Shown here: positions 16,164 through 28,878 of the stretch, piece after piece
Layout: every line of letters begins with the position of its first letter
Numbering within the stretch: position 1 is the stretch's first letter
Source of the DNA: Streptomyces sp. NBC_00239
GTDB lineage: Bacteria > Actinomycetota > Actinomycetes > Streptomycetales > Streptomycetaceae
NCBI RefSeq assembly: GCF_036194065.1
Contig: NZ_CP108095.1
Location: 3,162,001 to 3,226,000, forward strand
Direction: 5' to 3'
DNA length: 64,000 nt
The notes under the pieces: generated by a model
Databases searched by the model: none
What the model was told of the DNA's origin: nothing
Seen by the model: the letters and a program-made list of their open reading frames with translations, nothing else
Made by a program: the position numbers and the translations under genes

Positions 16164-16207
16164 ATGCGGAAGGGGTCGGACTCGACAGAGTCCGACCCCT
16201 TCCGCAT
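16164..16207. terminator. Perfect 20-bp hairpin after the ABM-like gene
   Basis: Arms 16164-16183 and 16188-16207 are perfectly complementary over 20 nt (left arm starts ATGCGGAAGGGG) with a GACA loop. It insulates the ABM-like gene from the toxin-antitoxin promoter 47 nt downstream. The GAAGGGGTCG core recurs in the hairpin after the toxin gene. Confidence 0.85.
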
Positions 16208-16253
16208 GCGCGAACACGGCGATGGAAGCCCGTCCGCCCGCCACAGCGAGGCA

Positions 16254-16282
16254 TTGCGTACACATGGGACACCCGGTACCCT
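16254..16282 (+). promoter_or_regulatory. Leaderless promoter of the toxin-antitoxin pair
   Basis: TTGCGT (16254-16259), a 17-nt spacer and TACCCT (16277-16282) form a sigma-70-type promoter. The expected start of transcription is at or within a base of the antitoxin ATG (16290), so the mRNA should be leaderless. No Shine-Dalgarno sequence is present, which agrees. Confidence 0.7.
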
Positions 16283-16289
16283 TGGGCTC

Positions 16290-16559
16290 ATGACACAGCC
16301 GCTGCCCATAGAGTCCATCCGTGACGTACGCGCACACCTGGCTGAGGTCGTGGAACGCGCCGATCGCGACGACGTCCCCACCGTGATCACGCGCCGGGGC
16401 AAGGAAGTAGCCGCCGTCGTCTCCATCGAGGTGTTGCGCAAGTACCAGGAGTGGGAAGAGCGCGAGATCAACCGGATCATCGACGAGCGCATGGCCAACC
16501 CGGCACCCGGCATCCCGATCGAGGCCATCATGAGGGAGACGCTGGCGCGCGGTGAGTGA
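16290..16559 (+). CDS. Type II antitoxin, Phd/YefM family
   Basis: An 89-residue protein with the Phd/YefM N-terminal DNA-binding fold (IESIRDVRAHLAEVVERAD, VPTVITRRGKEVAAVVSIE) and a helical, acidic C-terminal arm that would wrap the toxin (EWEEREINRIIDERM). It should neutralise the downstream RelE-type toxin and repress their common promoter. ATG at 16290 is preferred over upstream starts because the promoter -10 box ends only 7 nt before it. It overlaps the toxin gene by 8 nt. Confidence 0.92.
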   Translation: MTQPLPIESIRDVRAHLAEVVERADRDDVPTVITRRGKEVAAVVSIEVLRKYQEWEEREINRIIDERMANPAPGIPIEAIMRETLARGE

Positions 16560-16815
16560 GTACCGAACCGTGTTCCGTCCCGAGGCGCAGGCCGAGCTCC
16601 GGAAGATCCCCCGCGACACGGCGCTGCGCATCCTGGCCAAGCTGACCGAGCTGGAGACCGATCCCCTCGGCTTCAACACCACCGCACTCGTGTCACGGCC
16701 CGACCGGCGTCGCCTACGGGTCGGCGACTATCGCGTCGTCTACACGATCGACAACGGAGAGCTGGTGGTCTGGGTCGTGCATGTCGGGCACCGCTCCACC
16801 GTCTACGACACTTGA
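16552..16815 (+). CDS. Type II toxin, RelE/ParE family
   Basis: An 87-residue RelE-fold protein: YRTVFRPEAQAELRKIPRDT, then SRPDRRRLRVGDYRVVYTID and a C-terminal VVWVVHVGHRSTVY. The basic RRRLRVGDYR strand and the C-terminal HR-x-x-VY residues are those used by RelE toxins for ribosome-dependent mRNA cleavage. GTG at 16552 lies inside the antitoxin gene (8-nt overlap), giving translational coupling. It is complete and probably active. Confidence 0.93.
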   Translation: MSEYRTVFRPEAQAELRKIPRDTALRILAKLTELETDPLGFNTTALVSRPDRRRLRVGDYRVVYTIDNGELVVWVVHVGHRSTVYDT

Positions 16816-17571: not shown

Positions 17572-17670
17572 CAACTGATGCGCCCCGGGTCCGATCGAGT
17601 TGGGGCACATCAAACTCCACGAAACCGGGGTCAGCTCAGGAATCCGGCCCTAGTCGGTGCCAACCAGCCC

Positions 17671-19821
17671 TTACACCTCAAGGTTTGCCAGGAGGCGTTC
17701 GGCGAGTTCGGCAAGGGTTTCGCCATCCTGGGTCATCCAGCGGGCGGTGCCCTGATTGGAAACCGGTCGTCCCTCCCAGCCGGCCAGTTCCCACATGCGG
17801 GAAACCAGGCCGCTGGGCGAGTAGCGCTGACGGTCGTACTCCCAGATGAGGGCCTTGCCGGTCTCCCCTGTCCACGAGGCACGCGAGCGGCTCTCATCTG
17901 TTGCGAGCCAAGTGTCCAGTGCTTCTTGCTCGGCTGGTACGAAGAGGTTTAGACGAAGGGGTGCGCCTTCCAGGAGTGCCCCTTGGTTGACGATGACGTG
18001 GACCGAATTGGGGCGGCGCGGCTTGCGGTGCCGCTCTTCCTTACGGAGGTACGGGGACACGTCCTGTGTCTGGCCTCCTGCGGACAGCACGTCCAGGACA
18101 TCGGTCACGAGCGCTGCGCACTCCGCGTCGTCGATGCACACTCGCTTGAGGTCCGAGCGGGTTCCGTGCCGGGAGTCCAGTACGCCGAGCATCACGGGTA
18201 CGGTGCGCTCCAGCAGTTCGGGGATCCGGTTGCTTGCCTTGACGAACCAGGTGGCGGTGGGGTCTGCGGGGTCAGGCTCGCCTATGCCCGCGTCTTCTGC
18301 GAGCAGTTGGCGGAAGACGAGGTGGGTGAGGAGGAAAGCTCCGTCGTCGATGACGGCGGCTCCCCGCTTCTCGTACTCGTCGCGCACGGTACGTAGGGCT
18401 TTGCGGGTCTCGCGGAGGACGCGTACGGCGTTCCAGACCTCGAAGACTCCGGGTACGGAACGGAACAGCGGGTCGTAGATAGATCCGCTGCCTCGCTGCC
18501 ATATCACGTCGGTGGAGTCGGCCGCCACCAGCCGGGCCGTGAAGCGGCTGGCGGAGTGTGCGCAGGCCAGAGCACACGCGGCCTCGACGACGGAGCAACC
18601 CTCGTCCCCCTGGGGCTCTAGTTCGCCTCGACGGACGCTGTACACCAGGTCCAGTTCGGCCCGGAACTCCTCGATCAGGACGGCCTGCACGGGGTCCAGG
18701 GCGATGCGGTCGCGGTCGGTGATGTGGTTCTGCCGGTTGGTGGCCTGGGTGGTGCGCTGGGCGAAGTCGGCGTCCCCGCCGGTGACGATGATGCGGACCC
18801 CGACCTCGGCCGACTCCGCCTGCTCGTCCTCCTTCGCCGCGTCGATGAGGGCCCGTACGGTCTGCGCCCCGTTCACCACGCTCGCACCGTGCGCGGTGAG
18901 GCGGAGCGGGAGGCGTTCCGGCTGCTTCTTGGATCCCTTCTCGATCTCCAGGGAGTCGCACAGAATGGTGATGCCGTTATTGAAGTACCAGAAGTTGGCG
19001 GGCTCTTCGGTGAGCGTCTCCACCAACTCGCTGTTGATGGGTGTCAGCCCGAGCGGGTTGCGGATGTTGTGGTCGAAGAGTCGGTTGCCGTACTCCGCCC
19101 ATTCCACGATCTGCTCGGCCTGCACCACGCCTTGGTAGGCCTGTTGGTCGGAGGGCGAGCATGCGAACCATGGAGACATCGTGACTTCGAGGGTGATCGG
19201 CTCGGGCCTCTGATCGTCACGGGCTCGCGCGTAGATCTCCGGCGAGTGGATCACACGGTGGAAGATGTGAGTTCCGTCATGGTTGAAGTCCTTTTCCCCG
19301 TTCTCGATGGCCTGGCGTACCCCTGGGGCGAGTTCCTTCGTGCCCATGAGGACGATCACCTGGGTCACCTTGGTCAGGTCCGAGCCCAGCAGCGACTTGG
19401 CCTGCTCGGCCAGTACGCGGCCGCGCGGATTGAACTGGCGGGATTCCCCCGCGTCAATCAGGGTAAGTCCCGAGAACAGTTTGAGGACTGCGGTTTCATC
19501 GGCTTTGGCAGTGCCGGTCTCGCTCCACTTGGACTGGACGAGGTAGATGTGCGCGGCGTCCTGGTCAACGGCGATCGCGTCGATTCCCTGGTCGTTGCCG
19601 CCGTCGATAACGCAGGCCGCCGCATCGGCGGGCGTCCAGTCGGTCACCATGCGCACGGCATGCGCGGCAAGGGCACGGGACCGCCGCGCGATGACCAGGT
19701 CGTCCGGCCTGCGGTTGCCGAAGTCGCTCATGTCGATGAGGCCGCCGTACGTCGCGTCGAGGAAGTTGGCGACTTGGCGGACCTGGGTGGGAACGTCGGG
19801 GCGGCGCGGAGGGGTGCTCAT
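17671..19821 (-). CDS. AIPR family (abortive infection phage resistance) protein with Mrr-like nuclease motif
   Basis: A 716-residue cytosolic protein. The N-terminal 160 residues hold a PD-(D/E)XK-type active-site pattern: Asp81 in GNDQGIDAIAVD and Gln96-x-Lys98 in YLVQSKW. The AIPR core follows with its hallmark segments FNNGITI (280-286), VNGAQT (316-321) and ATNRQN (360-365). AIPR proteins were first noted in phage-resistance (Abi) loci. ATG at 19821 has GGGAG 6 nt upstream; a TTG 8 codons earlier is less likely. It is the last gene of the hsd operon, 58 nt after the second methylase, so it probably acts with it. The C-terminal 200 residues are not recognised. Confidence 0.87.
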   Translation of the reverse strand: MSTPPRRPDVPTQVRQVANFLDATYGGLIDMSDFGNRRPDDLVIARRSRALAAHAVRMVTDWTPADAAACVIDGGNDQGIDAIAVDQDAAHIYLVQSKWSETGTAKADETAVLKLFSGLTLIDAGESRQFNPRGRVLAEQAKSLLGSDLTKVTQVIVLMGTKELAPGVRQAIENGEKDFNHDGTHIFHRVIHSPEIYARARDDQRPEPITLEVTMSPWFACSPSDQQAYQGVVQAEQIVEWAEYGNRLFDHNIRNPLGLTPINSELVETLTEEPANFWYFNNGITILCDSLEIEKGSKKQPERLPLRLTAHGASVVNGAQTVRALIDAAKEDEQAESAEVGVRIIVTGGDADFAQRTTQATNRQNHITDRDRIALDPVQAVLIEEFRAELDLVYSVRRGELEPQGDEGCSVVEAACALACAHSASRFTARLVAADSTDVIWQRGSGSIYDPLFRSVPGVFEVWNAVRVLRETRKALRTVRDEYEKRGAAVIDDGAFLLTHLVFRQLLAEDAGIGEPDPADPTATWFVKASNRIPELLERTVPVMLGVLDSRHGTRSDLKRVCIDDAECAALVTDVLDVLSAGGQTQDVSPYLRKEERHRKPRRPNSVHVIVNQGALLEGAPLRLNLFVPAEQEALDTWLATDESRSRASWTGETGKALIWEYDRQRYSPSGLVSRMWELAGWEGRPVSNQGTARWMTQDGETLAELAERLLANLEV

Positions 19822-19879
19822 GGTTCTCCCGTGCGGGGCTGTCAAGAGTAGGGGGCGTAGGGAACTCGGAGGGTGCCCG

Positions 19880-21436
19880 TCACTGGCCGGGGGCGAGTGA
19901 GTCCACGACGGCCTGGAAGCTGCTGCTGGCGCTGTTCAGTTCGGCGACGATGGAGGCCGCAATGTCGCCTGGGGAACCGAGGTCCTGCTGGTCTTCGGTG
20001 AGGTCGGCCCAGAGCTCCAGGCTGGTGCTGGGGCGGGCCAGAAGATCGGCTACGGGGTACGGCTTGAACTGGCGTGACCGGGTACGGCTGCTGTGGTCGG
20101 GGTCGTCTGGGCGGTAGGCGGCGAGGAAGTTGGACAGGTCGTCCTCGGTGAGCGGGTTGCCGGTGTCCGTGCGGTGGTTGCCGGTGCGGGCGTCGTAGAC
20201 CCACAGGGCGCGCGTGGCGGGCTCGCCGCTGGGGCGAGGGGCGGACTTGGTGAAAAAGAGGATGTTCGCCTTGGAGTTGGTGCCCCGGAAGATGCCGGTG
20301 GGCAGGCGCAGCAGAGTGTGCACGTCGCAGTTGAGGAGCAGATTGCGGCGTACGGTGGCCGCGGCGCCCTTACCGAATAGCACGCTGTCGGGGGCGAAGA
20401 CGGCGGCTCGCGCACCTTGCGGCAAGGTGATGGCGATGTGTTGGAGGAAGTTGGTGGGAAGGTCCGCCTTGGGCGCCCAGAAGTCGTCGCGGTGGGTGGC
20501 GTCAACGGCCGCGTCGGTGCTCTTGAAGGGCGGGTTGCACAGAGCCACGGTCGCGGCGACATCCCGGTCCTGACGCTGAATCGCCCTTGCCCTGCGGGAA
20601 AGGGAGTCCGAACGCTGTACCGGGGGAATCCCCGCGAACAGCCGGCGAGTGTTGAGGAGCACATTCATGGTGGCGAGACGGCACATCTGGGGATCGATGT
20701 CGGCTCCCGCGATGGCGGAGTCGTCCACCTTGGTGCCGTGGCTCTCCATCTCCCGATGGGCGGCGATCAGCGTGCTGCCAATGCCGCAGGCTGGGTCGAT
20801 GATTCGGTCGTCGGGGGTGAGGGCGAGGGCCTTGGCGACCACGGCGAGGAGTGGCGGTGGGGTCAGGAACTGCCCAGTCTGGCGCTTCTTGAGCATGTCG
20901 TCGTAGCAGTCGGAGAGAAGCTGGGCGAAGGCCCGTCCGAGCTCGCCGTCGGGGACCTGAACCCAACGGTATGGGTTGATCTCCTCGGTGATGAGCTGTC
21001 GCAGCTCGCTCATCCGGTCGATGTTCCACGGCTGTGCGTCATGGAAGAGGACACTGGCGGTGGTGCGACGCTGGTTGTCCGGGGTTGGCGTGCCGAGCGT
21101 GCGCATGGTGCGGGCCAGGTAGCTGTGGAGGTCTTCGCCGCCGCGTTCGACCAGGTGCGGCCAGGTGTCGATCGATGGCGCGACCGGACGGGAGGCGAAC
21201 TTGCCGGGCCGGTTTGCGCGTTCGTGGTCGAGCTTGAGGAAGAGCAGGTAGGCGATGTGCTCAGCAAACTCGATCTTTGTCAGGGCCCGGGTGCTGGTCT
21301 TGTCGTTGTAGAACGCCCACCAGCGGCGGACGATCGATTCGGCGGTCCAGTGCCGCTCAAGCCGCCCACTCTGCGGCGGAACCTCCGACATCCCACTCGT
21401 GCTTCCCGGCCCAGTACTGCCCCGCCCCGTACCCAT
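19880..21436 (-). CDS. Second HsdM-like N-6 adenine DNA methylase
   Basis: A 518-residue paralogue of the adjacent HsdM. It has the HsdM N-terminal helical domain (ALTKIEFAEHIAYLLFLKLD), the segment TGQFLTPPPLL in place of the usual GQYFTPRPVI, SAM motif I DPACGIGSTLIAAH (214-227) and the catalytic NPPF (301-304), so it looks active. It keeps the C-terminal LLRLPTGIF and NILFFTK blocks. It is divergent from HsdM and has no second HsdS partner nearby. ATG at 21436 follows GGAGGG; ATG at 21391 is an alternative. It lies 87 nt after hsdM. It may modify on its own, share HsdS, or mark self DNA for the AIPR nuclease. Confidence 0.87.
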   Translation of the reverse strand: MGTGRGSTGPGSTSGMSEVPPQSGRLERHWTAESIVRRWWAFYNDKTSTRALTKIEFAEHIAYLLFLKLDHERANRPGKFASRPVAPSIDTWPHLVERGGEDLHSYLARTMRTLGTPTPDNQRRTTASVLFHDAQPWNIDRMSELRQLITEEINPYRWVQVPDGELGRAFAQLLSDCYDDMLKKRQTGQFLTPPPLLAVVAKALALTPDDRIIDPACGIGSTLIAAHREMESHGTKVDDSAIAGADIDPQMCRLATMNVLLNTRRLFAGIPPVQRSDSLSRRARAIQRQDRDVAATVALCNPPFKSTDAAVDATHRDDFWAPKADLPTNFLQHIAITLPQGARAAVFAPDSVLFGKGAAATVRRNLLLNCDVHTLLRLPTGIFRGTNSKANILFFTKSAPRPSGEPATRALWVYDARTGNHRTDTGNPLTEDDLSNFLAAYRPDDPDHSSRTRSRQFKPYPVADLLARPSTSLELWADLTEDQQDLGSPGDIAASIVAELNSASSSFQAVVDSLAPGQ

Positions 21437-21523
21437 ACCGTTCTGGTTCCCTCCGGCGTTACCCGAGTTCGGGCCACGGCCGGTTGCCTTCCGGGCCCTG
21501 ACTCGGGTAACGGAAGGACGGGC

Positions 21524-23179
21524 CTACCCCGCGCGGGCTTCCCCTGTTTCGTCGCTGTCGTCGTCGGCTGTGCTGGTTGTTCCCGTTCGCGTGACGCTCT
21601 CCGGGTCCGCTTCCCTCTTCAGAGCGCGTGCCACGGTGGTGAACTCAGCCAAAGCGGCCTCCAGTTCGTCCACGATCTCCTGGGCGATCACGTCGGGCGA
21701 CGCAAGGGCCGTGTTCGCGGAGTCCGTTCCCGATCGGAGGACGGTCAGGTCGAGATTCACCTTGTCACGAGTGATCAGTTCTTCGTAATCGTAAGGCTGG
21801 AAGCGATCAGTGGGCTTGCGAGCGGAGAAATCGGTGCCGCCCGAGTGGAAGGCGGCGACGAAGTCGTCCAGGTGCTCGCGGCGCAGCTGCCGCTGCTTGA
21901 GGGTGAACCGCTGGTCGGTGCGGAAGTCGTAGACCCACAGCTGCCTGGTGCCGGGGCGGCCTCCGGTGCGCTGGCCGGTCTTGTCGAAGAACAGGACGTT
22001 GGCCTTGACACCGTTGGCGTAGAAGATGCCGGTGGGCAGGCGCAGCAGCGTGTGCACATCGCACAGGTTCAGCAGGTTGCGGCGGATCGTCTCGCCGGCA
22101 CCTGACTCGAAGAGCACGTTGTCGGGGAGGACGACGGCTGCCCGGCCGTTGGTCTTCAGCAAGTTGTAGATGTGCTGGACGAAGTTGAGCTGTTTGTTGG
22201 TGGTCTGGGTCCAGAAGTCCTTGCGGGCGGTGTACGCCTCGCCCGTCACCGAGCCAACACCGAAGGGCGGGTTGGCGAAGACGATGTCGTAGAACCGCGA
22301 GGGAGACTTCGCCAGGGAGTCCTGCACGGTGATCAGTGGCTTGGCCTCGGATGTGCCGATGTTGTGCAGCAGCATGTTCATCAGCGCCAGACGGGCGGTC
22401 TCCCGGACCAGCTCGTAGCCGGTGATCGCGCCAGTTTGCAGCTTGCGGCCCTCATCACCGTAGAGCTGTTCCTGGTAGTGCTGATTGAGGTGGGCATGGG
22501 CGGCGATGAGGAAGCCGCCCGTTCCGCAGGCTGGGTCGGTGATGGTCTCGCCGACCTGGGGCCGGACACAGTCGACCATGGCGTCGATGACAGGGCGGGG
22601 AGTGAAGTACTGGCCGGCGCCGGTCTTGCGGTCCTCGGCGCCGCGCTGCAGCAGGCCCTCGTACGCGTCGCCCTTGAGGTCCTGGTCTTCGGTGGTCCAG
22701 CGGTACGGGTTGATCAGGTCCTTGATCAGCCGCTCCAGGACGGCCGGTTCGTGGATCTTGTTGCTCGACTTGGCGAAAACCTCACCGAGCATGGTGCCGC
22801 CGCGCGAACCGAGGTCCTTGAGGATGAACTCGTAGTGGTCGAGCAGCGCGTCACCGGAGCGAGTGGTCAGGCTTGCCCAGTCCCGGCCCGGAGGAACGAG
22901 GGGTTCCTCCGGCAGGTTGCGGCGGAACTTCGCCGGGCGGTTGGCCCGCTCGTCCGCCATCTTCAGGAAGAGGAGGTACGTGAGCTGCTCGACGTAGTCG
23001 AGAGTGGAGACCCCGGAGTGGCGCAGGAGCTCGCAGTACGACCAGAGTCGGTTGACGAGAGTGCTAGTCGACTCGGCCGCGGCCGCCCTGGGCGTGGCCT
23101 GAGGCCCAAGGAGAACACTTTCCTGGGGCGAGTCCTGCGCCGGGGCAGTGGCGGGCTTGTCGGTGCTCATGGTGCTCAC
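21524..23179 (-). CDS. hsdM: Type I restriction-modification system methylase subunit HsdM
   Basis: A 551-residue methylase subunit. HsdM_N helical domain about 38-175, then GQYFTPRPVIDAMVD, motif I TDPACGTGGFLIAAH (214-228) and motif IV NPPF (303-306) for adenine N6 methylation. The C-terminal block LLRLPTGIFYANGVKANVLF is as in EcoKI/EcoR124-type M subunits. It should form M2S with HsdS and R2M2S with HsdR. The start GTG at 23179 overlaps the hsdS stop (GTGA, 4 nt); an ATG three codons on is also possible. Length is normal for the family. Confidence 0.96.
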   Translation of the reverse strand: MSTMSTDKPATAPAQDSPQESVLLGPQATPRAAAAESTSTLVNRLWSYCELLRHSGVSTLDYVEQLTYLLFLKMADERANRPAKFRRNLPEEPLVPPGRDWASLTTRSGDALLDHYEFILKDLGSRGGTMLGEVFAKSSNKIHEPAVLERLIKDLINPYRWTTEDQDLKGDAYEGLLQRGAEDRKTGAGQYFTPRPVIDAMVDCVRPQVGETITDPACGTGGFLIAAHAHLNQHYQEQLYGDEGRKLQTGAITGYELVRETARLALMNMLLHNIGTSEAKPLITVQDSLAKSPSRFYDIVFANPPFGVGSVTGEAYTARKDFWTQTTNKQLNFVQHIYNLLKTNGRAAVVLPDNVLFESGAGETIRRNLLNLCDVHTLLRLPTGIFYANGVKANVLFFDKTGQRTGGRPGTRQLWVYDFRTDQRFTLKQRQLRREHLDDFVAAFHSGGTDFSARKPTDRFQPYDYEELITRDKVNLDLTVLRSGTDSANTALASPDVIAQEIVDELEAALAEFTTVARALKREADPESVTRTGTTSTADDDSDETGEARAG

Positions 23180-24660
23180 AGGGGCAGTTCTCCTTGACCG
23201 GGGTCGCCGGTCGACTTGCTGGTGCGCGGTGTGCGGCGTCGCGCGCTCTTCGTTCCGGTGGCGGCGGAGCGCTGGGCGCGGATGCGGTCGAGCAGTGTGG
23301 AGGCGGGCTCGTCGGTGGGGTCCTGGGCGACAAGGGTGCCAGTGAAGGCGGCGTAGAGGAGAGCGGCGCGGAGGTTGATCACCTCGGCAGCCTGACTGTC
23401 CAGAGCATCCCTCAGCACACCTACCTGTGCAATCCTGTCGCGAATTACCGACGCGATTCGCTGCTGCTCATCGTAGGACCCAGGCACCGGGATTCTGGCA
23501 GACTTCACAACTCCTTGAGAGATGTTCCGCATGGAATCACTGGTTCCCGTAGCGGCGTCGGAGTACTGGTCGCGCACATACCGGGAAGAAAGCACCTCGA
23601 GAAGCCATTCGCGACTCACTCGATCCTTCGGGACGAGACGCAAGCTTTTGTCGCTCAGTAGAAGCTTTCCGCGGACGGGGCCAACCAGAACGGGTGCCCC
23701 GACATATTCCACGGTGTTTGCGCGGCTCAGCAAAATATCGCCGCTGCAGATTTCGAAATCAGGGTTTACTTCCCGCCCTTCAGGGACGGCCTTATTCTCG
23801 TCTGCTCGAAACTCTCCCCAGGTCATAGCGCTGACTTTGATAATGCCCCACTCGTCCTCGTGGGCGGCCCTAGGGAGGCAGGTGAAAGATTTCCCGGCCT
23901 CAATTCTCTGCAGAACGTCACCGACCGTCCCCCATCGCCACCCTGGCGGCAATTCCTTGCCAGGACTCGTCCGGACCTCTCGTGACCGGATCTGACTGAT
24001 GAGCTCAGTCAGCTTTTTTGCGGCGCGCGCAAGGGACGATTCGCCCGCCTCGACGTGGTCCAGCTGCTCGTCCAGCCGTGCCACGATGCGGCGCTGCTCG
24101 GCGAGTGGCGGAATCGTGATTGTTGTGTCAAGCAGCACTTTCCGTGACACACTCGCCTGGTTTACATGATTATTCAAGACGGTCTTGAAATAGCCAGTGG
24201 ACCACAACGCGTGGAGCTGAATAGCCAAAAACTGGCCATCGAGTCCAACCGGGGGGCGAAGGCGTGTCATGTGGTTGGAGTACGCCAAGGGCTTTTCCGA
24301 GTCGACCCAGGCCGTCTTTCCTACCAGCGCCGGGCTGTTGGTATTATTGAAGAGGATATCTCCGCGCTGCACGCGCCGCTCCGACTCATCCTCAATGAAG
24401 CGAGCGTCGGAGGTATCGATGACTCCATGGCGTGTGATGTTCATCGGGCGCAGGTGTAGGACACCGTTGCCATCGCGGTTGTGTTTTCCGCTGGCAAATC
24501 CCGGCTGTACCTCAACGCCAATTTCACCGAGCGTTGCCCGAGCCCAACCCTTCGGTAGGCCGGAGATACCTTCACCGTTCCCCACTCCGGAATTCCCCCC
24601 GCCAGAGGTCGCGCCTCCGACTCCCCTGCTTTCCGCGACGTCCACGGCGGTCCCCCTCAC
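23176..24660 (-). CDS. hsdS: Type I restriction-modification specificity subunit HsdS
   Basis: A 494-residue protein with two target-recognition domains. TRD1 (about 38-190) begins GWARATLGEIGVEVQPG, and TRD2 (about 225-400) begins GWRWGTVGDVLQRIEAG. The conserved helices that set the spacer length of the bipartite target follow each (IPPLAEQRRIVARLDEQLD, and IPVPGSYDEQQRIASVIRD). The TRD coding DNA is visibly less G+C-rich than the helices, as expected for TRD exchange. It overlaps hsdR upstream and hsdM downstream by GTGA each. The target sequence cannot be predicted here. Confidence 0.95.
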   Translation of the reverse strand: MRGTAVDVAESRGVGGATSGGGNSGVGNGEGISGLPKGWARATLGEIGVEVQPGFASGKHNRDGNGVLHLRPMNITRHGVIDTSDARFIEDESERRVQRGDILFNNTNSPALVGKTAWVDSEKPLAYSNHMTRLRPPVGLDGQFLAIQLHALWSTGYFKTVLNNHVNQASVSRKVLLDTTITIPPLAEQRRIVARLDEQLDHVEAGESSLARAAKKLTELISQIRSREVRTSPGKELPPGWRWGTVGDVLQRIEAGKSFTCLPRAAHEDEWGIIKVSAMTWGEFRADENKAVPEGREVNPDFEICSGDILLSRANTVEYVGAPVLVGPVRGKLLLSDKSLRLVPKDRVSREWLLEVLSSRYVRDQYSDAATGTSDSMRNISQGVVKSARIPVPGSYDEQQRIASVIRDRIAQVGVLRDALDSQAAEVINLRAALLYAAFTGTLVAQDPTDEPASTLLDRIRAQRSAATGTKSARRRTPRTSKSTGDPGQGELPL

Positions 24661-27600
24661 GCGCTCAGCTCCCTGTCGAGTTCGTCGATGATGTGTTCTG
24701 CCTGTCGTTCGCCGAATTCGGCGAGGAAGCCGTCCGTGCCGTTACGAGCGGCAAACGGGGCATAGTCGAGGTCGGCGGTGTCGAAGCGTACACGTTCGAT
24801 CGTGGCGGCTGCGATGTGGTCGAGCCACCAGCGCTGACGGTCGCTGAAATGGACGCCTGCCTGATGCTGGCGGGTGAGCCAGGCCGCATAGCGTTCGCGG
24901 ACGCGTTCCTCGTGCGGGATCGGCTGGGGGGCGCCGCGTTCGGCCCCGCCAGCGAGTTCGTAGCGGAGCAGGGCGAGGAGGTCGGCTGCGGTCCGGCGCG
25001 TCTGAGCAACGCGTAGGGCGGCTTCGCCGACCTGCTCGTAGGCGGTCCACAGGCGGTCCGGGGTCCAGGCGCGTGGGGGACGGGCGATGGCACGGGCCAC
25101 GTTCTGCAAGTGGCGCAGGGCGTCGGCCGGCGGAGTGTCGGAGTCGGCGTTGAAGGCGATAGCGAGGGCGGTGATTTCGTCGCGGTTGGCATCGATGTAC
25201 TGCCGCCAGCTGGTGACGACATCCCGGGAGGCCGCCTCGTTCTCCACCACCGCACCTGCGGTGACCAGCTCGTCTCGGCTGGTCTCGTCGTAGAGGATGT
25301 CCTTTGCGCGACGCATCTCGAGTAGCCGGGCACGCAGCTTCGGGGCAGCGGCGAGGGGCCGGACGGCGTGGTCGATGAGCGCCCGCACCTCCCGCTCGGG
25401 GTCGCGGCCGGTCAGGTGAGCGGCGTCCCGTACCTTCTGCTGGTCGTCGGCCGAGACCGCGCGGACCATGCCGTGAATGATCTCCTTGAGGGGGCAGCCG
25501 CCGGTGAGCTGCTCGATCTCGCCGCGCTCCTCAGGGGTCATCTGGATGTCGAGCTTGGCAAGGCGGGCGGCGAGGGTGGAGACCTCTTCCTCCTCGATGG
25601 TGCCGGCGCCAGCCTTCCGCAGCAGCTTCTCCAGGCTGACCTGCTTCTCGGTGTGGCGCTCTAGCGGGGCCGCGTCGAGCTTCTTCTTCTGGGTGACGCC
25701 CACCGCGTCGACGATGACGAAGCGGGTCTTTGGGCCGACGCCGGGCGTCACCTTCTCGAACTCGGTGAGGGAGAGGGTGCGGGCGCCGCGGCCCTTCATC
25801 TGCTCGAAGTATGCCCAGCTCTTCACGTCACGCAGGAAGAGCAGGCATTCCAAGGGCTTAACGTCGGTACCGGTGGCGATCATGTCGACGGTGACGGCGA
25901 TCCGCAGCTGAGGCAGGTTACGGAAGTCCGCCAGGCGCTCATCAGCCTTCTTCGCCGCGTGGGTGATCTTGGCGCAGAAGTCGTTGCCCTTGCCGAAGAC
26001 GTCACGGACGACTTCGACGATCTCTTCGGCATGATTGTCGTTCTTCGCGAAGATCAGGGTCTTGGGGACGTACATCTCGTCCCACAGCAGCTCACCGTTG
26101 GAACCGTCACGCTTGCCGCGCTCGGGGAAGATCTCGGTGAAGAGCCGCTCTCGGAAGGTGCGGATCACGGTGCGCAGCTGGTCCTTGCTGATGACGCCCA
26201 CACCGACTTGGTTCGCACCGTACTCGACGTCCTCGTCGAGGTCCTCGTAGCGCTGGCGTCGGGTGCGCCGGTCGCGGACCGGGATGGTGCCCTGGGCGAT
26301 GACACCGCCCTCGGCCGTTATCCGGGTGCCGATCTCATACACGGAGAAGTCGACGTTGACACCGTCGGCGACGGCCTCCTGGTAGGTGTACTCGCTGACC
26401 AGGTTGCCGTTGAAGTAGCCGAAGGTCTGCGCGACCGGAGTGGCGGTGAGGCCCACGATAGGCGCGTCGAAGTACTCCAGGACCGAGCGCCACTTGCCGT
26501 AGATGGAGCGGTGGCACTCGTCGACCACGAGCAGGTCGAAGGACTCCGGCGGGATGTCCGGGTTGTAACCGACCTCGACCGGGCCGGGAATGTCGTAGGG
26601 CCGTTCTCCCTCGGCGTCTTCCGCGAGGGCGCCCGTCGGGTGTTCGCCGGTCAGTTCCATGTACAGGCGTTGGACGGTGGACACGACCACCTTGGACGAC
26701 GGCTTCATGCCTTCGGCGCCGAGCCGCTGGACGTGGTAGAGGTCGGCGAACTTGCGGGCACCGTCGGGGGTAATGAAGTTCTCGAACTCGGCGACTGCCT
26801 GGTCGCCCAGGTTGTTGCGGTCGACGAGGAAGAGGACTCGCTCGGCGCGCGCATGCTTCAGCATCCGGTACGAGAAGGTCACCGCGGTGAAGGTCTTGCC
26901 GGCGCCGGTGGCCATCTGCACCAGAGAACGGGATTGGCCCATGCCCTGCTGGCCCCGGCCGAGGGCTACGGAGTCCTCGACCCCGCGGACAGCGGAGATC
27001 TGCGCAGGGCGCAGCGGGCGCTCGTCCAGTGCGGGCATGCGCCAGCGGAGACGGGCGCGGTAGCTCGGGGCCTGTGGGTCTTCGTCGGCTTGGCGGATCC
27101 AGCGGGCCAGGGTGCGTGGCTGGTGGAAGGAGAAGAGCCGGCGGGTACGGGAGTCGGGGTCGAGGGTGCTGCGGAAGCGGGTCTCGCCGCCGTCGCTCAC
27201 GTAACGGAACGGCAGGGGTTCCTCTCGCCTCCAAGCGAGCATGCGCTGCTGGGCGTCGGTGGGGTGGTCGGCGTACCGGTCGGCCTGAGCCTCGGCAGCG
27301 GACAGATCGGCCCCTTCGCGCTTGGCCTCGATGACACCGACCAGCCTGCGGTCCACGTACAGCACGTAGTCGGCCCGGCCGCGTGCTGTCGTGGTCTCGC
27401 GGACGGCGACGCCGTTACCCCGGTGGTCGCCCTGATGCCAAAGGTTCTGCTCCGCGATGTCCTGGACCTGCCAGCCCGCCTCGGTGAGCATCTGGTCGAG
27501 GCGGGCGCGAACCTGTACCTCGGTGAGGGGCTCACGGGCGGCCGCTTCGGCGTTGTCGAGGAGGCGGGCGCGCTCCGCGACAGCGGCGGAGGCCGCCGAG

Positions 27601-28340
27601 CTGTCGGTGGCTTCGGCCCGGCGCTGCCGTGCGTAGTCGGCCTCCTGGGCCGCTTCGACGTGCTTCAGCTGCTCCTGGAGCGCAGCGATCGAACGGGCGA
27701 GACCCTCTTGCTCGGCGCGAGCCGCGGAGAGCTCACGTTCGGCGGCGGCCCGAGCCGCCTGCTCGGCCTCCGCCTTGGACGCCTGGTCCTGGTAAGTGAG
27801 TCGGGCCTCTTCGAGGGCCTTGCGGGCCTGGGCCACCTCATCGCGCAGACGTTGGTTGCGTGCGGCCGGCGTACGGGCCGGGTCCGGGGGTACGAATGCG
27901 ATCTGCTCGCGCGAGCCGGTCAACAGGCGGTGGTACCAGACTCCGAGCCTGAAGCAGGATCGCAGGGCCCGGAATGCGTCGTCGGAGTTGTCGTGGTCAC
28001 CGTGGTTGGCGTCGTTGCCGTGGGCGCGGACCTCGTGGAAGGCGGCCCCGACATTTCCGTGCAGGTACCCCTCCGTGTCGAGGGCCTTCAGCCGCTCGAA
28101 CTGTGTGGTGCCCGCGTTCCTGATCCTAGCCCTGCGGACCAGGTCCGCCGCGAGCGTCTCACCGAACTGCCGCGACTTGATCAAGGACGTATTGGGGTCG
28201 CTGAAGACGTAACTCTCGGCTGCTGCCCCGTAGGCCACGAGCAGGGGGGTGTGCGGCAGGAGAAAGCCGAAGTTCCGGGACTGCTGGGCCAGCCCGGCCA
28301 GTTTGGCGTTCTGGGTGCCGGGCGAGCCGACCGCACTCAT
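24657..28340 (-). CDS. hsdR: Type I restriction endonuclease subunit HsdR with N-terminal DUF4145-like and coiled-coil regions
   Basis: A 1227-residue ATP-dependent translocating nuclease. A DUF4145-like domain (about 15-150) and a long Ala/Glu/Arg coiled coil (about 160-260) precede the PD-(D/E)XK nuclease with Asp324 (ADYVLY) and Glu338-x-Lys340 (IEAK). The SF2 motor follows: Walker A MATGAGKT (476-483), DECH (607-610) and GLTATP (630-635), then helicase C and a C-terminal EcoEI-type domain that binds the methylase core. It is the first gene of the operon. Length and order match the EcoEI-like R subunits of actinobacteria. The ATG at 28340 has only a weak ribosome-binding site. Confidence 0.95.
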   Translation of the reverse strand: MSAVGSPGTQNAKLAGLAQQSRNFGFLLPHTPLLVAYGAAAESYVFSDPNTSLIKSRQFGETLAADLVRRARIRNAGTTQFERLKALDTEGYLHGNVGAAFHEVRAHGNDANHGDHDNSDDAFRALRSCFRLGVWYHRLLTGSREQIAFVPPDPARTPAARNQRLRDEVAQARKALEEARLTYQDQASKAEAEQAARAAAERELSAARAEQEGLARSIAALQEQLKHVEAAQEADYARQRRAEATDSSAASAAVAERARLLDNAEAAAREPLTEVQVRARLDQMLTEAGWQVQDIAEQNLWHQGDHRGNGVAVRETTTARGRADYVLYVDRRLVGVIEAKREGADLSAAEAQADRYADHPTDAQQRMLAWRREEPLPFRYVSDGGETRFRSTLDPDSRTRRLFSFHQPRTLARWIRQADEDPQAPSYRARLRWRMPALDERPLRPAQISAVRGVEDSVALGRGQQGMGQSRSLVQMATGAGKTFTAVTFSYRMLKHARAERVLFLVDRNNLGDQAVAEFENFITPDGARKFADLYHVQRLGAEGMKPSSKVVVSTVQRLYMELTGEHPTGALAEDAEGERPYDIPGPVEVGYNPDIPPESFDLLVVDECHRSIYGKWRSVLEYFDAPIVGLTATPVAQTFGYFNGNLVSEYTYQEAVADGVNVDFSVYEIGTRITAEGGVIAQGTIPVRDRRTRRQRYEDLDEDVEYGANQVGVGVISKDQLRTVIRTFRERLFTEIFPERGKRDGSNGELLWDEMYVPKTLIFAKNDNHAEEIVEVVRDVFGKGNDFCAKITHAAKKADERLADFRNLPQLRIAVTVDMIATGTDVKPLECLLFLRDVKSWAYFEQMKGRGARTLSLTEFEKVTPGVGPKTRFVIVDAVGVTQKKKLDAAPLERHTEKQVSLEKLLRKAGAGTIEEEEVSTLAARLAKLDIQMTPEERGEIEQLTGGCPLKEIIHGMVRAVSADDQQKVRDAAHLTGRDPEREVRALIDHAVRPLAAAPKLRARLLEMRRAKDILYDETSRDELVTAGAVVENEAASRDVVTSWRQYIDANRDEITALAIAFNADSDTPPADALRHLQNVARAIARPPRAWTPDRLWTAYEQVGEAALRVAQTRRTAADLLALLRYELAGGAERGAPQPIPHEERVRERYAAWLTRQHQAGVHFSDRQRWWLDHIAAATIERVRFDTADLDYAPFAARNGTDGFLAEFGERQAEHIIDELDRELSA

Positions 28341-28878
28341 ACTGTGTCACCACTTTCTGGGGCGGGTGAGCCGCGTCGAGCGACTTGATCGCCGTACGAC
28401 CCTACTTTGGGATGTTCGAAGTCGGATCGGTTTTTGCGTGTACCGAAGCGCGGACTTTCCGGGGTCTGGAGACGGACGTGGGTACATCGAGGACTGACAC
28501 CTACGTATGCCCGTCGTGACGCCAGGCGGTCAAGCCGCACATGTCCGTCACTGAGACTGCCCCCTTCGACTTACACCGTCGAACAAATCCGCAGTTCAGA
28601 GCTGCACATGCGACCAGCTGCGGTGTGTCGCCGCTGTCCAGAAGCCGAACCTATGGCCAACTGCGTGACCACTTCACAGCCGGTGCCCCCACTCTGCCCA
28701 CGACACCACGGCCGACGACAGCGCTGCGGATGCCCCTGCCGTTCATGCGGACCTACAACGCCTTGTCCTCGGTGAGCGACGTTGTCGGTCAGGTGCCCAA
28801 CGTGATGAGTCTGGTCCACTCCATAAGCTGCCCAGACCCCGAGCTGCTGGCAGGCACCTCTGAGGGCGGGTTGAAAGA
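28341..28878. other. Right-end region of the island, no recognised gene
   Basis: About 540 nt upstream of hsdR with lower G+C than its surroundings. It must contain the hsd operon promoter; TAGGGT on the minus strand (28400-28405) is a possible -10 box, without a good -35. A 113-codon open frame (28541-28882, plus) has no codon bias and no family-like motif and is not called as a gene. Confidence 0.45.

Follow-up and report, generated by a model that had tools for sequence, protein, structure and literature searches.

The stretch of DNA analysed here (the window, 64,000 nucleotides (nt) of Streptomyces sp. NBC_00239, contig NZ_CP108095.1, positions 3,162,001 to 3,226,000) carries a five-gene cassette consisting of hsdR, hsdS, hsdM1, a second, divergent methylase gene (M2) and a gene for an AIPR-family protein. 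What is new here is a type I restriction variant with two adenine-type M subunits, which had an AIPR gene as neighbour at every M2 locus found. We see an even chance that the following reading holds as a whole: a mobile type I cassette encoding an M1M2S enzyme, with M2 likeliest at the half-site of the first target-recognition domain (TRD1) and the AIPR protein as a linked second-line effector. M1 and M2 would then take both M places on one S subunit (M1M2S and, with HsdR, R2M1M2S), M2 most likely serving the TRD1 half-site, and both would methylate adenine, one per strand. The AIPR protein, a predicted Mrr-like nuclease, would act on DNA or RNA once restriction fails or is blocked.

A conserved and mobile five-gene cassette

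All five open reading frames proved intact on the minus strand, where an initial annotation of this DNA had placed them:

24657-28340, minus strand: hsdR, restriction subunit (1227 amino acids (aa), ATG start), with DUF4145-like, HSDR_N, SF2 helicase and EcoEI_R_C parts
23176-24660, minus strand: hsdS, specificity subunit with two target-recognition domains (TRDs; 494 aa, GTG start)
21524-23179, minus strand: hsdM1, methylase subunit with HsdM_N and N6_Mtase, motif NPPF (551 aa, GTG start)
19880-21436, minus strand: M2, second divergent methylase subunit with N6_Mtase, motif NPPF (518 aa, ATG start)
17671-19821, minus strand: AIPR-family protein (716 aa from the ATG at 19821; 724 aa from a TTG at 19845)

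The two GTGA overlaps noted earlier were recovered, with R/S and S/M1 each overlapping by 4 nt. The gap between M1 and M2 is 87 nt, and that between M2 and AIPR is 34 nt with the TTG start or 58 nt with the ATG start. The ATG is more probably the true start, since GGGAG lies directly upstream and a 97%-identical homologue is 716 aa long. The domains are those of a type I system: an HsdR with SF2 helicase and restriction domains (ResIII, EcoEI_R_C and others above the Pfam cut-off, DUF4145 slightly below its own), an HsdS with two TRDs (Methylase_S), and an HsdM with an N6-adenine methylase domain. N6_Mtase was found in M1 and M2 alike and HsdM_N in M1; Pfam gave no HsdM_N match in M2, which corrects the initial annotation. 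The AIPR protein matched PF10592 at 116.2 bits against a gathering score of 25.

Homologues were sought in samples of 392 genomes from the genus, 394 from the family (overlapping the genus sample) and 394 from the class. M2 matches at E <= 1e-40 occurred in 42 of the 392 genus-sample genomes, with at least 53% identity in 7 and 32-40% in the rest. An M1 of at least 79% identity was likewise present in 7 of the 392, exactly those with M2, and the next M1 relatives reached 54-62%. The family sample added three M2 loci, one of them in another genus, and the class sample held no M2 match above 44% apart from the window's own. A scan of genome contigs returned eight loci with one true M2 locus (L003, Streptomyces sp. 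NBC_01549), which is the place already known from genome G370. Among the protein database matches listed, 68 M2 proteins had at least 52% identity, one had 46% and the next 41%. Their named sources were Streptomyces, with single exceptions labelled Nocardia, Allonocardiopsis, [Kitasatospora] papulosa and Streptoverticillium; by a rough proxy for a shared genome, 16 of the 69 M2 proteins could be paired with one of the best 70 AIPR matches.

At all ten distinct M2 loci, the window included, R, S, M1 and M2 stood in a row with an AIPR gene within 3 kb, and thus two different M subunits accompanied one S in 10/10. Two architectures were seen. In architecture A (window, G370, G311, G560, G472) the AIPR gene lies 3' of M2 on the same strand, and the other four AIPR proteins are 56-97% identical to the window's. 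In architecture B (G084, G048, G316, G338, G626) it is convergent on the opposite strand and 36-37% identical to the window's; genes for DUF5753 and/or DUF397 regulators lie in between at four of these five loci (L043, L045, L046, L112) and were not seen at the fifth, L044. As controls, 17 ordinary R-S-M1 loci were taken, 16 from the 26 other M1-bearing genus-sample genomes plus the second, ordinary system of G370. All 17 had a single M, and neither M2 nor AIPR was found within their 20 kb (10/10 vs 0/17 for AIPR, Fisher 1.2e-7, a p value to be taken as a guide only as the rows are related). This linkage rules out chance neighbours or a local accident: the five genes form a conserved system, and the conserved M2-AIPR linkage with hsdRSM in other genomes, which the initial annotation had proposed as a check, is borne out. 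Of its "five-gene operon" the conserved unit stands; a single operon is uncertain, as the 87-nt gap between M1 and M2 holds a strong hairpin (see below).

The cassette also has sharp borders, as seen from the block that the window shares with G370:

17669-28378, no strand assigned: block common to the window and G370/L041, 94-95% identical at the nucleotide level, most of hsdS unmatched, flanks unrelated

Its edges lie 2 nt outside the AIPR stop (17669) and 38 nt before hsdR (28378). The G+C content from approximately 16 to 30 kb of the window is 63-69% in 2-kb steps, compared to mostly 70-76% around it, as for acquired DNA. The M2 locus of G311 corresponds to a 2.8-Mb plasmid, NZ_CP081497.1, the only record from the plasmid search, where the place is unannotated. 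Ratios of nonsynonymous to synonymous substitution rates between the window and G370 were 0.106 for R, 0.086 for M1, 0.145 for M2 and 0.081 for AIPR.

Across the ten loci, the distances of R, M1, M2 and AIPR correlate with r 0.93-0.97 (Mantel, 0/2000 per pair), and the M1 and M2 trees show the same split into A and B; hsdR is 72-96% identical among the ten systems. S distances correlate with those of R, M1, M2 and AIPR at only r 0.17-0.24, and hsdS was 42% identical between systems whose R, M1, M2 and AIPR are 95-97% identical. S is thus exchanged while R and M stay conserved, as in type I systems generally. In short, the five genes are kept as a set, with joint divergence of R, M1, M2 and AIPR and free swapping of hsdS, and the cassette is inherited and moved horizontally as a single unit. 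The TRDs themselves appear shuffled: the window's TRD1 clusters with that of L046, and its TRD2 with those of L110 and L112.

The second methylase and a proposed asymmetric enzyme

The initial annotation had called M2 a second complete, divergent M subunit, and this holds: M2 is full-length, keeps its catalytic motifs and carries N6_Mtase. NPPF was present in 69/69 M2 homologues and NPPY in none; motif X (GQxxTP) was found in all 69 as well. M2 is therefore probably an adenine methylase, and an m4C (N4-methylcytosine) methylase of the PacII kind is excluded as a class assignment by NPPF instead of NPPY. A recent copy of M1 is unsupported, since the tree separates M1 and M2 deeply; an older duplication and a separate recruitment of M2 are indistinguishable, as long branches meet at the M1/M2 split (a warning of the program).

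A second M without its own S had been considered foreign to type I systems. This view does not stand, as non-canonical type I enzymes that combine two M subunits with a single S have been described, and for PacII a structure has been solved (PMC9613975). In the parts of that report drawn on here, M1 binds S first and M2 then joins, TRD1 adjoins M2, and the C-terminal tail of the M proteins is the part binding S. Such an arrangement predicts unequal constraint on TRD1 and TRD2, less similar halves of S, and changes in M1 at the partner surfaces.

Four comparisons of two-M systems with one-M relatives bear on these predictions. First, TRD1 identity was 0.53 and TRD2 identity 0.32 in two-M systems, compared to 0.29 and 0.31 in one-M relatives. 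With slightly shifted windows, the values were 0.49/0.28 vs 0.25/0.32 (label permutation p 0.0002). Secondly, over all 27 rows, the N- and C-terminal halves of S resembled each other less in two-M systems than in one-M relatives, with median scores of 62.5 and 131, respectively (p 0.008). Thirdly, three columns in a conserved region of S distinguish the groups:

23974-24111, minus strand: CR1, the central conserved region of hsdS; three of its columns mark two-M systems (the A of RI(V/A)A and the G and E of ExGE)

Each of these was present in 10/10 two-M systems and in 3, 3 and 1 of 17 one-M relatives, respectively. Finally, M1 differed between the groups in 29 of the 104 conserved columns of the N-terminal domain and tail; for the catalytic domain the count was 24 of 182 (p 0.003, domain limits set by us). 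All four lean towards M1M2S, each as moderate evidence because the rows are related and few. Judged from sequence and by analogy, the likeliest arrangement is an asymmetric M1M2S as in PacII, but outside its NPPY-bearing class, which pairs m6A (N6-methyladenine) with m4C; support for it is moderate.

A further feature lies between the two methylase genes:

21457-21512, minus strand: inverted repeat/hairpin between the M1 stop and the M2 start, 19-nt arms (21457-21475 and 21494-21512), 89% complementary

The fold z-score was -4.6 in the window, with a median of -4.7 (range -7.5 to -0.3) for the ten two-M loci. In the 120 nt after hsdM of the 17 one-M loci the median was -1.5, with four at -3 or below (p 0.002 vs two-M; the stretches compared are of unequal length, with L110 and L111 represented by the 150 nt directly following M1). 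A paired change in the stem was seen between the window and G370 (GTTACCC/GGGTAAC vs GTCACCC/GGGTGAC). A pattern scan found no U-tract terminator at the hairpin. It may act as an attenuator or as a different type of terminator, and R-S-M1 and M2-AIPR may thus be expressed differently.

The hairpin also bears on another explanation, in which M1 and M2 would each build a symmetric enzyme of their own on the shared S (M1(2)S and M2(2)S), e.g., a restriction form and a maintenance form. It may let M2 be expressed separately from R-S-M1, and both M1 and M2 are full-length with catalytic motifs and have retained the C-terminal tail. However, the constraint on TRD1 and on the S halves is asymmetric, M2 without M1 was not seen at any of the ten loci, and PacII M2 alone does not bind S according to the portion of the report used (PMC9613975). 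We therefore rate two symmetric enzymes as improbable, the least probable of the alternatives considered.

The case for M1M2S is also weakened by several observations. In M2, motif I reads DPA-G-G in 41/69 proteins and DAA-G-G in 24/69, with four outside the search pattern, and the DAA-G-G form could mean weakened catalysis. Between distant loci M2 is 51-65% identical compared to 76-83% for M1; this faster change may signal weaker constraint. In S, bootstrapping of the two-M systems gave an interval for the difference between TRD1 and TRD2 that includes zero (-0.03 to 0.55), the comparison of CR1 with CR2 alone gave p 0.06 (all 17 controls), and CR2 also has three group-specific columns, although weaker ones (80-90% vs 6-18%). 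The dominant TRD1 type of two-M systems also occurs in the one-M system L113 (64%), and that of L044 in L120 (65%), so these TRD1s were not made for M2. Moreover, a hairpin between M1 and M2 is odd for subunits needed in equal amounts.

The AIPR protein and its link to M2

The nuclease-like N-terminus that had been read from the AIPR sequence is supported by a motif and by weak domain matches:

19525-19605, minus strand: predicted AIPR nuclease motif DGGNDQGID...QSKW, residues 73-99 in ATG numbering

The pattern D..D.GID..[QE]xK was present in 117 of the 120 AIPR homologues listed, and the other three have GVD. Of the 51 homologues scanned at E up to 5, 27 gave weak Mrr_cat matches, the best at 1.3e-4; the window's own protein gave none. 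A structurally solved relative was not found by sequence, and an older assignment gave AIPR proteins a HEPN-type N-terminus (PMC3506569). For the present subfamily, the sequence data point to an Mrr-type fold, and the protein is a predicted nuclease.

AIPR proteins at E <= 1e-60 were found in 63 of the 392 genus-sample genomes, including all seven with M2. M2 is special in that it was never seen without AIPR, while AIPR accompanies restriction generally. The remaining 56 of the 63 genomes lack M2, and among the 20 best-scoring AIPR loci lacking a full M2, 15 had type I genes nearby, in many cases together with a Ser/Thr kinase and a UvrD helicase. The AIPR link may therefore be with restriction in general, a point that tells against the preferred reading. 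Individual loci add to it. G287 codes for an intact 716-aa AIPR protein, while its M2 is a 54-aa stub; R and M1 are absent from the 30 kb examined there, and only a short, weak S-like stretch lies approximately 6 kb away. Among nine more one-M loci from the class sample (approximately 1.5 kb on each side), AIPR was present in one, L134, and a longer stretch of that locus (L146, G849) has AIPR in two pieces beside an R-S-M1 set without M2. From G287 and G849 it follows that AIPR does not need M2. On account of L134/L146 and of the weaker group-specific columns in CR2, the preferred reading was given slightly less confidence. In L146 (10997-15059, from another family), the two AIPR pieces are convergent to the ordinary R-S-M1 set and meet near residue 315, with a 580-aa open reading frame between them on the other strand.

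The idea of the initial annotation that M2 protects against AIPR is thus disfavoured in the form of an obligatory antidote. An abortive response, which the same annotation proposed, would be suggested by the name of the AIPR family. A softer version would make M2 mainly a sensor or brake, which is part of the methylase complex, or competes for it, and frees the AIPR nuclease upon inhibition of the enzyme or loss of host methylation, similar to PrrC, which is held by EcoprrI (precedent in the parts of PMC3506569 and PMC12707154 drawn on). M2 and AIPR are linked in 10/10 loci despite the changing AIPR subfamily and orientation, AIPR follows closely 3' of M2 in the five same-strand loci (34 nt in the window and L041, 130 nt in L042), and divergence is faster in both M2 and AIPR than in M1 and R. 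However, the same G287 and G849 loci and the absence of M2 from most AIPR-bearing genomes speak against it, and in 5/10 loci AIPR lies on the other strand and hence is not co-transcribed with M2. We regard a sensor or brake as unlikely. The same low standing is given to M2 as a dedicated control subunit, where M1M2S would read host methylation and M2 would restrain the Mrr-like nuclease of AIPR, releasing it upon a block of the enzyme or a loss of methylation. If true, a second methylase would here form the basis of a guard with epigenetic gating, and its AIPR effectors, seen in two subfamilies, would be interchangeable.

Conversely, AIPR could be merely a preferred neighbour in defence islands, and the two-M enzyme would work alone. 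This would fit the AIPR-RM (restriction-modification) neighbourhoods described in general (in the sections used of PMC2292703 and PMC3506569), the type I genes at the 15 loci above, the use of two AIPR subfamilies among M2 loci that are 36-38% identical to each other, and the AIPR pieces of the one-M system L146 outside the genus. On the other hand, AIPR was present at every M2 locus and at none of the 17 relatives in the genus sample, its distances follow those of M1 within each architecture (r 0.97), and the block shared with G370 stops directly after the AIPR stop. We regard a mere island neighbour as equally unlikely as the sensor or brake; the AIPR protein is probably a linked second line of defence, as in the preferred reading.

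Comparison with known systems and neighbouring observations

The closest known counterpart is PacII of the m6A/m4C subgroup, which likewise combines a pair of different M genes with a single two-TRD S and an R subunit, its M1 being of the NPPF type (PMC9613975, parts used). The cassette differs in the NPPF of its M2, and both its M1 and M2 are nearer by sequence to the M subunits of StySJI and EcoKI than to PacII M1 or M2. An AIPR gene belongs to the cassette; none is mentioned for PacII in the parts of that report drawn on. Within the same lineage, ordinary type I systems with an EcoKI/StySJI-like M and a PRK11448-like R share the R-S-M1 order at 43-54% (R) and 53-60% (M1) identity but, unlike the cassette, have a single M and no AIPR in 17/17 genus-sample loci.

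General reports of AIPR genes beside restriction systems go back to 2008 (PMC2292703, PMC3506569, parts used). The AIPR domain and RM neighbourhood are common to AIPR/AbiU genes near restriction systems, i.e., MZA and the Streptomyces clusters of AIPR, kinase, UvrD and type I genes, whose kinase and UvrD helicase are not among the five genes of the cassette. MZA was rejected, as the MzaE model gave 33.5 bits vs a cut-off of 1050, and so was MADS (best 119.9 bits for M1 vs 720 for MAD2; S 33.1 vs 400 for MAD5). A type I system with a linked toxin or nuclease gene is shared with PrrC and EcoprrI and with DarTG2 in a type I system (RRDM; PMC12255303, parts used), but the effector of the cassette differs. 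A PrrC homologue (NTPase plus anticodon nuclease) was not indicated, with no such domain in the Pfam matches of the five proteins at E up to 0.001.

In the open-licence literature, judged by titles and the beginnings of abstracts, no type I system with two adenine M subunits and AIPR was found. In the two-methylase type I enzymes known so far, one methylase acts on adenine and the other on cytosine; here there are seemingly two adenine methylases. Two adenine M subunits, one constrained S half and a constant AIPR would show that asymmetric type I enzymes arose for a reason other than m4C, and a defined five-gene unit would allow a test of the long-standing suggestion that restriction is backed up by AIPR proteins.

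AIPR genes were also observed in other settings. In Streptomyces loci L079, L080, L083, L084, L086, L087 and L089-L092, AIPR is part of a larger recurring cluster with a Ser/Thr kinase with TPR, often a UvrD-type helicase, an HsdR of 1059-1114 aa and sometimes HsdM or HsdS. Loci L139-L142 (G096, G082, G116, G083) combine AIPR, two tandem N6_Mtase genes, HsdS, HsdR and a kinase, with UvrD downstream in three of the four; the first tandem methylase of these sets has no HsdM_N, and NPPY was seen in L093 and L094. For the L140 set, no protein reached the NCBIfam curated cut-off among the families listed, and it was likewise far below the cut-offs for MZA and MADS. A tandem N6_Mtase pair near AIPR was also present in L082 and L093-L095. 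A second, parallel family of two M plus AIPR was considered for these loci and kept as a loose parallel only: the first L140 methylase, which is also the L094 gene, gave matches of specificity-subunit type in its C-terminal part and may thus carry its own recognition domain.

The window's genome has a second AIPR gene (G000:C1:8424931-8427012; L145, 9393-12170), which is 34% identical to the first and lies beside a kinase-like gene; the other four cassette genes had no match in the 20 kb around it. Just past the AIPR end of the cassette, a small gene pair on the plus strand (window 16164-16815) reads like a Phd/YefM antitoxin and a RelE toxin, a label from reading alone.

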